The translations under genes and the position numbers were made by a program. A DNA stretch of 35,034 nt from the NCBI GenBank assembly GCA_016207035.1, contig JACQQJ010000079.1:1-35034 (forward strand), given 5' to 3'. This document shows, in pieces, positions 6,618-32,283 of this stretch (within the stretch, counting starts at the first letter, position 1; every line of letters starts with the position of its first letter). The notes beneath the pieces were generated by a model, which was not told the DNA's origin, ran no database searches, and worked only from the letters and a program-made list of their open reading frames with translations. The stretch comes from Nitrospinota bacterium (GTDB taxonomy: Bacteria > Nitrospinota > Nitrospinia > UBA9942).

Positions 6618-6662
6618 ATAAAAAACTTATTTTAACCACTGAGATACTGAGGTTACAGAGGT

Positions 6663-6774
6663 CACAAAGAAAAGGTCACCAGTCCGGGGCACCCATCCAG
6701 TGGATGGGTCGCACCAGTCACCAGTTTTTTTACTGGTGCTCTGGTGCACTGGTGTCTGGTGTCCTATCTGTCTT
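6663..6774. repeat. Palindromic intergenic repeat (ACCAGT/ACTGGT-rich), copy 1; inverted copy at 22921-23010
   Basis: Its reverse complement shares an identical 49-nt block with 22921-22969 (aagacagataggacaccagacaccagtgcaccagagcaccagtaaaaaa) plus the ggtcaccagt...accttttctttgtg end. Confidence 0.9.
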
Positions 6775-6813
6775 CCTCTGTGTCTCCGTGCCTCAGTGGT
6801 TTATCTTCTATAT

Positions 6814-11124: not shown

Positions 11125-11262
11125 GGTACGTCTCACTAACTTCTCCCCTTTGTAAGGGGAGGCTGGGAGGGGTAGAATCCTCCTTAATAATGGGGGTAAA
11201 GGGGTTGTTAATCTCTACCTCCCCCAACCCCTCCTTATAAAGGAGGGGAAACACTTAAGATT
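11125..11262. repeat. Large GC-rich palindromic element with nested hairpins
   Basis: acttctcccctttgtaaggggaggctgggaggggtaga ... ctacctcccccaacccctccttataaaggagggg: two inverted halves, each with its own hairpin. Confidence 0.75.
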
Positions 11263-31682: not shown

Positions 31683-32240
31683 TCAGCATGTAAGATGTAA
31701 AGTTGCTACTACCTTCTGTGGATCACAAAGTCTATTGAAAGTCTTACATGCCTCTTCAGTTCTCTCTTCTATAAGCCTGATTCCTCTGGAATTGAAGTAA
31801 TCCCTTACCTCTTTGAGAACCTTCATCATCCCGGACGCGCCTGTGCCAATAATTAACAACCCACCTCCCCTCTCCCCTCCTTCAGAAGGAGGGCGGGGCA
31901 TCCATCCAGTGGATGGGTCGGGGGAGGTCAAAACATCCTTTAAATCATCGAGACGGAGGACATGGCCCTCTTTTCTCCACCAGTTTGATATTACCCTGTT
32001 ATTAAGTATTATGACATCAGAGGTATATCTTTTCCCCCCTATTACAATGTTTCCAAAACTATAAGAATCAATTTTAATTCTCTTTTCAGCGATCTCCTGT
32101 ACTTCAACCTTGTATTTATTATAGCATTCATAGCATATCTTCCCCATTTCAGTCTCCATCTTCATAAATTCTTCTTTAGCCCCAAGATACCTTCTGCATT
32201 TAAAACAATTATATTGTGAGCTTGTCGAGCCGATTGACAT
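31683..32240 (-). CDS. Mth938-like domain protein with N-terminal CxxC...CxxC motif and an in-frame palindromic insertion
   Basis: IDSYSFGNIVIGGKRYTSDVIILNNRVISNWWRKEGHVLRLDDLKDVL..LLIIGTGASGMMKVLKEVRDYFNSRGIRLIEERTEEACKTFNRLCDPQKVVATLHLTC. Start may be Met 32240 or the upstream Met at 32267. Confidence 0.8.
   Translation of the reverse strand: MSIGSTSSQYNCFKCRRYLGAKEEFMKMETEMGKICYECYNKYKVEVQEIAEKRIKIDSYSFGNIVIGGKRYTSDVIILNNRVISNWWRKEGHVLRLDDLKDVLTSPDPSTGWMPRPPSEGGERGGGLLIIGTGASGMMKVLKEVRDYFNSRGIRLIEERTEEACKTFNRLCDPQKVVATLHLTC
31863..31928. repeat. 66-bp palindromic element inserted in frame in the Mth938-like CDS
   Basis: Terminal inverted repeats ACCTCCCC/GGGGAGGT, inner palindromes CCCTCCTTC-A-GAAGGAGGG (31875-31893) and CCATCCA-G-TGGATGG (31902-31916). 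Exactly 22 codons in phase. Confidence 0.88.
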
Positions 32241-32283
32241 GTTAGATATTATAATGCAAAATACCATTTAGGGGTAAATAAAA

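Follow-up and report, generated by a model that had tools for sequence, protein, structure and literature searches.

The window analyzed here is a 35,034-nucleotide stretch of a Nitrospinota genome. On its minus strand, positions 31683-32267 encode a DUF498/Mth938-like protein of 194 aa with a Cys-rich N-terminal segment, and a profile search placed the PF04430/DUF498 match at residues 66-191 (E 8e-21). The gene carries an in-frame block of 66 bp at 31863-31928 (minus strand), which supplies residues ~113-134. An earlier note, made from the letters of this DNA alone, had described the block as bearing perfect 8-bp terminal inverted repeats and two internal palindromes, and we found these features as described: the ends read ACCTCCCC and GGGGAGGT, and the perfect internal palindromes are CCCTCCTTC-A-GAAGGAGGG and CCATCCA-G-TGGATGG. 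Folding prediction, suggested in the note as a check, showed that the single-stranded block folds better than shuffled sequences (z -2.3 and -3.1). In an AlphaFold model, residues 115-134 lie in a loop with pLDDT below 50 between a helix and a strand. Mth938-like orthologues in four relatives (G002, G003, G008 and G011) do not have the inserted peptide, so that conservation of the segment at the protein level, which the note had named as evidence against an insertion, was not found; the distance between DLKD and IGTG is 10 residues in these proteins versus 28 here. The net gain over the relatives is 54 bp, not 66, which means that the host gene has lost ~12 bp. Because both halves of the gene form one gene in the relatives, an assembly chimera is argued against. 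The N-terminal segment of the same ORF (32100-32230, minus strand) has a CxxC...CxxC arrangement; its counterpart in G003 lies in an ORF of its own, at a distance of more than 1 kb.

A search of the source genome with a 91-bp query gave 45 matches, most of them partial, in agreement with the note's expectation of other copies. The contexts of these matches resolve the block into two separable modules, a GC-rich palindrome of ~45 bp and a 27-mer with the consensus CGACCCATCCACTGGATGGGTGCCCCG. In the palindrome, the first outer arm (ACCTCCCC or AATCCCC) is followed, in most cases after a spacer of 6 nt, by an inner hairpin (CCCTCCTT..AAGGAGGG or CCCCCTTT..AAAGGGGG), and a further spacer leads to the second outer arm. 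In the Mth938-like gene, read in gene orientation on the minus strand, the 5' outer arm ACCTCCCC lies at 31921-31928, and the 3' part at 31863-31893 comprises the inner hairpin CCCTCCTTCTGAAGGAGGGG, AGA and the outer arm GGGGAGGT. Between them, at 31894-31920 (minus strand), the 27-nt hairpin element CGACCCATCCACTGGATGGATGCCCCG, with one mismatch to the consensus, occupies the exact place of the 6-nt spacer (45 - 6 + 27 = 66). Palindromes without the 27-mer occur, as do 27-mers without the palindrome, in tandem heptamers, at unique sites and within the 27-mer itself. The 66-bp block is therefore a composite of a palindrome and a nested 27-bp hairpin, not one element. The note had read it as one dispersed 66-bp palindromic element; its dispersal, palindromic structure, reading frame and absence from orthologues stand, whereas the single mobile unit does not, the recurring part being the nested 27-mer.

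Both modules recur elsewhere in the window. A second 27-mer, identical to the consensus, lies at 6685-6711 (minus strand) in an array of ACTGGTG heptamers (6660-6775), at or beside the boundary of two ORFs. The combination of 27-mer and ACTGGTG array occurs about 15 times in the source genome, mostly between genes. A further copy of the CCTCCCC palindrome, without the 27-mer, is present at 11217-11250 (ACCTCCCCCAACCCCTCCTTATAAAGGAGGGG), where no ORF of at least 100 aa overlaps it. A glycosyltransferase gene of the source genome also contains a composite, and at the same place G003 has another repeat-like peptide, IARSVSDEAISKSGIASPLARND.

The distribution of the element was established by pattern searches among genomes that are all incomplete MAGs. 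When up to three mismatches are allowed, 40 copies of the 27-mer are present in the source genome, versus none for a reversed-pattern control, and five further genomes of its Nitrospinota family hold 3-5 copies apiece. At this threshold the six sampled genomes of the family all carry it, and 72 other genomes of the phylum gave no copy. The five contigs with exact matches come from Nitrospinota MAGs of groundwater and RIFCSP samples. The GlnE gene of one relative contains CGACCCACTTTCGTGGGTGCCCCG, which led us to the broader pattern CGACCC-N(3-22)-GGGTGCCCCG. This pattern has 76 exact matches in the six family genomes and one elsewhere (38 nt), and its reversed control has two over 78 genomes. 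The resulting superfamily combines constant ends, CGACCC...GGGTGCCCCG, with a variable, compensating apex; its members span 23-38 nt, mainly 23, 24, 25 and 27 nt with a few of 35-38 nt. The apices differ yet pair (ATCC-ACT-GGAT, AC-TTTC-GT, AAAC-TTC-GTTT, AAGC-TTT-GCTT, ATTGC..GCAAT). Since the ends are fixed by the search pattern, only apex pairs count as evidence of covariation; across 19 distinct 27-mers, 98% of these cells are paired with 14 two-sided changes, a level reached in 0 of 500 shuffles, and controls slid along the sequence are at most 48% paired. Copies lie in tandem heptamers, palindromes, other copies, unique sequence and dozens of conserved genes.

Two further identities were considered for the element. 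Carriage by phages was rejected: the loose superfamily pattern gave at least 120 matches in IMG/VR, nearly all explained by chance, and the exact 27-mer gave none there. One IMG/VR contig classed as viral (3300009549_000219) holds a 23-nt member, CGACCCGCGTAGCGGGTGCCCCG, between AACTCAA-like heptamers. A known RNA gene was likewise rejected, as six element-bearing loci contain no Rfam match to the element, the only hit being a tRNA elsewhere.

Comparison with orthologous empty sites of about 30 genes revealed what insertion does to its target. At unique, non-repeat sites, the 27-mer adds 21 bp in UvrD (against three relatives), in PFL and in a DHH protein (against three). Within repeats, it also adds 21 bp relative to close relatives in NrdJ, MurE, RecG, Lnt, UvrC, FtsK and a spermidine-synthase/MFS protein; for the 24-mer, the gain is 18 bp, both in Lnt (against four of four relatives) and in a radical SAM protein. 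Where copies are nested, the order is A-[ABC]-C and 6 nt (GATGGG) of the outer copy are missing. The stretch that measures 27 nt in filled palindromes is a 6-nt spacer in most empty ones. In tandem arrays, the period-7 register fits replacement of 6 nt in 32 of 33 distinct heptamers, where chance would give 1 in 7. This applies to elements of 23, 24 and 27 nt and to coding and non-coding copies alike; one 23-mer reads phase 3. The corresponding p of 3e-26 is only indicative, because copies within repeat families are not independent. Since 23-6, 24-6 and 27-6 leave different remainders modulo 7, the register can be accounted for only if 6 nt (modulo 7) are lost. Several coding sites (LigA, AroE, MutL, LipB, KdsB and DnaE) depart from the exact length minus six, and in most of them the number of heptamers also varies or the orthologue is diverged. 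These comparisons show that insertion exchanges exactly 6 nt of the target for the whole element, whatever the length of that element. An 8-bp target-site duplication would mimic the heptamer register, and it is excluded by the lengths at unique sites and in orthologues: the sites in UvrD, PFL and DHH have lost 6 nt and show no duplication. We also considered that the replaced hexamer resembles the element ends (CGACCG in PFL, CGTCCG in UvrD), an idea dropped after the DHH site (AATTAA).

Several observations concern the sites themselves. The two bases that flank the element are identical in 48 of 49 heptamer copies, as expected from the register, in 9 of 11 palindrome copies and in 18 of 32 others; equal flanking bases may reflect an N-6-N target. 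In UvrD/PcrA, the position that the 27-mer occupies in G002 is taken in G005 by another repeat, which lies in frame and encodes NVILSDSEES, and these loops are landing sites common to unrelated repeats. Tandem heptamer arrays with locus-specific units also lie in frame, without the hairpin element, in the conserved genes AroE, PMT and Lnt. An NHL-repeat protein has the same length in orthologues of three genera at a 24-mer site, with one copy decayed (ACACGAAAGTGGGTCA); this is probably an old, shared insertion.

The 6-nt exchange bears directly on the presence of copies inside genes. Because 6 nt are replaced, 24- and 27-mers add six or seven codons and keep the frame. A copy was taken as coding if its ORF had 180 aa or more and extended for at least 40 aa to either side of it, thresholds that were set after the data had been seen. 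On this basis, 47 of the 85 copies that measure 24 or 27 nt lie inside ORFs, versus none of 13 copies of 23, 25, 35, 37 or 38 nt (p 1.1e-4; p 2.1e-5 when the ACTGGTG family is left out). The 27-mer is in frame in 30 independent genes and uses all six reading frames (8, 6, 3, 5, 2 and 6 genes). All frames of its consensus are free of stop codons, a property shared by 35% of its shuffles and by 3.5% of random 27-mers from the window. According to Pfam and NCBIfam, the host proteins are full-length enzymes, including AspS, UvrC, FtsK, RecG, LipA, Lnt, LigA, AroE, PcrA/UvrD, MutL, NrdJ, MurE, RNase R, GlnE, KdsB, DnaE and TsaB-like proteins. Non-coding copies lie between ORFs or at ORF edges, and we saw no case of an ORF interrupted out of frame by one. 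The 24- and 27-nt forms thus often sit, presumably without harm, in essential genes, and the simplest reading of this habit is selection against frameshifts, with an insertion arithmetic that happens to keep the frame.

Taken together, we consider it probable, at roughly 0.8, that the block in the Mth938-like gene combines a palindromic repeat of ~45 bp with a 27-nt hairpin nested in it, and that this hairpin belongs to a family of very small mobile elements, which insert by a 6-nt exchange and are retained in genes at frame-keeping lengths. Within one Nitrospinota family, the 27-mer seems to multiply by copying itself to new genomic sites, a mobility read from comparison, since no insertion polymorphism was seen within one population. 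The hairpin, as DNA or RNA, would be the substrate of a putative enzyme that works in trans and whose cutting or copying has a fixed offset of 6 nt. Palindrome and 27-mer would have entered the Mth938-like gene together or in two steps, removing ~12 bp of it, and composites of the element with palindromes or heptamers may have spread as units. The peptide encoded by the insert (DPSTGWMPRPPSEGGER) is presumably translated and tolerated, as others would be, in surface loops. Purifying selection would then maintain the frame, aided by the 27-6 and 24-6 arithmetic and by cores that mostly have no stop codons.

How the hairpin might move is addressed by several alternatives. One is an RNA-mediated route, in which reverse transcription at a nick and a fixed offset of the second strand remove 6 nt. 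Hairpin covariation and a fixed target deletion fit such target-primed copying, and an RNA route was reportedly proposed for the SDRs of cyanobacteria by Elhai in 2008. However, RVT_1 is represented by one broken fragment in the source genome and was not found in G002, G004 or G005, and the six element-bearing loci gave no Rfam match. We regard this route as possible but doubtful; a reverse transcriptase as the enzyme was set aside because it is not consistently present, being missing from three of six genomes, all of which are incomplete MAGs.

Alternatively, the 27-mer could itself be immobile and spread as a passenger when heptamer arrays, or palindromes, exchange sequence with each other by homologous recombination or gene conversion. 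Repeats do hold most of the copies, the ACTGGTG and CCTCCCC composites vary little from one occurrence to the next, and the register is kept. Yet the insertions in UvrD, PFL and DHH entered unique sequence without flanking homology, the same element occurs in more than 20 different heptamers and in nested copies, and 23-, 24- and 27-mers share the 6-nt register, so that we consider recombination unlikely.

Movement of a REP/REPIN-type element by a RAYT (a Y1 transposase) seems distinctly unlikely to us. The element does resemble this class as a short, dispersed, family-specific hairpin, Y1_Tnp genes occur in five of the six family genomes, and a contig of G001 has a broken Y1_Tnp relic ~1 kb from a copy. 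However, the source genome has four Y1_Tnp matches and no copy within 1.5 kb of them, nor any RAYT beside its copies, and G005 bears copies but has no Y1_Tnp match. To our knowledge, a fixed 6-nt target loss is not a feature of REP/REPIN elements. Furthermore, the copies are not confined to extragenic positions and were not seen as doublets. GTAG/CGTC REPs carry a head motif (PMC3733652), whereas the consensus CGACCC...GGGTGCCCCG has neither GTAG nor CGTC on either strand.

The resemblance to RPEs suggested in the earlier note is partial. RPEs are palindromic repeats of ~150 bp that lie in frame in unrelated genes and encode a conserved peptide (PMC10969869). As with these, coding copies of our element keep the frame in unrelated genes, 30 independent ones for the 27-mer alone, but its unit is 23-27 nt (up to 38) with a 66-bp composite, all six frames are used, the host belongs to another phylum, and the exact 6-nt replacement and the placement in heptamers, palindromes and itself set it apart. 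A single 66-bp palindromic selfish element that inserts in frame and encodes a preferred peptide would agree with the position in a conserved gene, the palindromic ends and the several similar composites in the genome. We reject it as a single unit, and consider it very unlikely, on account of the six frames and of the occurrence of palindrome and 27-mer each without the other. That the segment is instead skipped by ribosome bypassing or removed from the RNA, leaving a normal host protein, is hardly credible: hairpins in coding sequence recall the byps generally known from yeast mitochondria, but genes hold only frame-preserving lengths (47 versus 0), which bypassing would not require.

Among other known systems, MITEs resemble the ~45-bp host palindrome, which is GC-rich, dispersed and built of terminal inverted repeats with an inner hairpin, and differ in that the 27-mer has a fixed place in it, replacing the 6-nt spacer. 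The 27-mer itself does not behave as a MITE with target-site duplication, given the loss of 6 nt at its unique sites. The cyanobacterial SDRs, compared here by their description, appear to be the closest published analogue of the Nitrospinota element, which adds to them an RPE-like coding habit. As reported by Elhai in 2008, SDRs of Nostoc and relatives are said to measure 21-27 nt, to lie in tandem heptamers, in minitransposons and in themselves, to share a hairpin with compensatory changes, and to have been proposed as the smallest mobile elements. The Nitrospinota element agrees with this in unit size (23, 24, 25 and 27 nt dominate a dispersed family), in its contexts of tandem heptamers, minitransposon-like palindromes and its own copies, and in a common hairpin with compensatory changes (14 two-sided, 0/500 shuffles). 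The differences are its host, which is not a cyanobacterium, its fixed ends with a free apex, and the position of about half of its copies in genes, in all six frames. Nostoc SDRs are treated in PMC3116915 and PMC4390886; the latter reports that SDR5 enters HIP1 between its nucleotides 3 and 4, that is, between adjacent bases and without the loss of 6 nt seen here. In 200 kb of the Nostoc punctiforme plasmid pNPUN01, we found heptamer arrays, none of them interrupted by a clear small element. The units of these arrays are locus-specific (GACTCCT, GGAAGTC, AGGGTGT), like those of the Nitrospinota arrays. A literature search in a limited library found no paper on such elements in Nitrospinota.

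We tentatively suggest, at somewhat below even odds, that the hairpins represent a distinct class of mobile element, with fixed ends and a free apex, in which a putative enzyme performs an invariant 6-nt exchange and thereby seeds frame-preserving inserts of six or seven codons in essential proteins. The same machinery may underlie SDRs and heptamer arrays in other phyla. Elements of ~25 nt mark the lower limit of what counts as mobile, and their mode of movement has been a question ever since SDRs were described. The length-independent replacement of 6 nt provides a concrete mechanistic signature that any proposed enzyme has to explain. The element also bears on the misreading of such repeats in annotation. 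Moreover, it naturally supplies core enzymes with short peptide inserts and so bears on how proteins gain loops.
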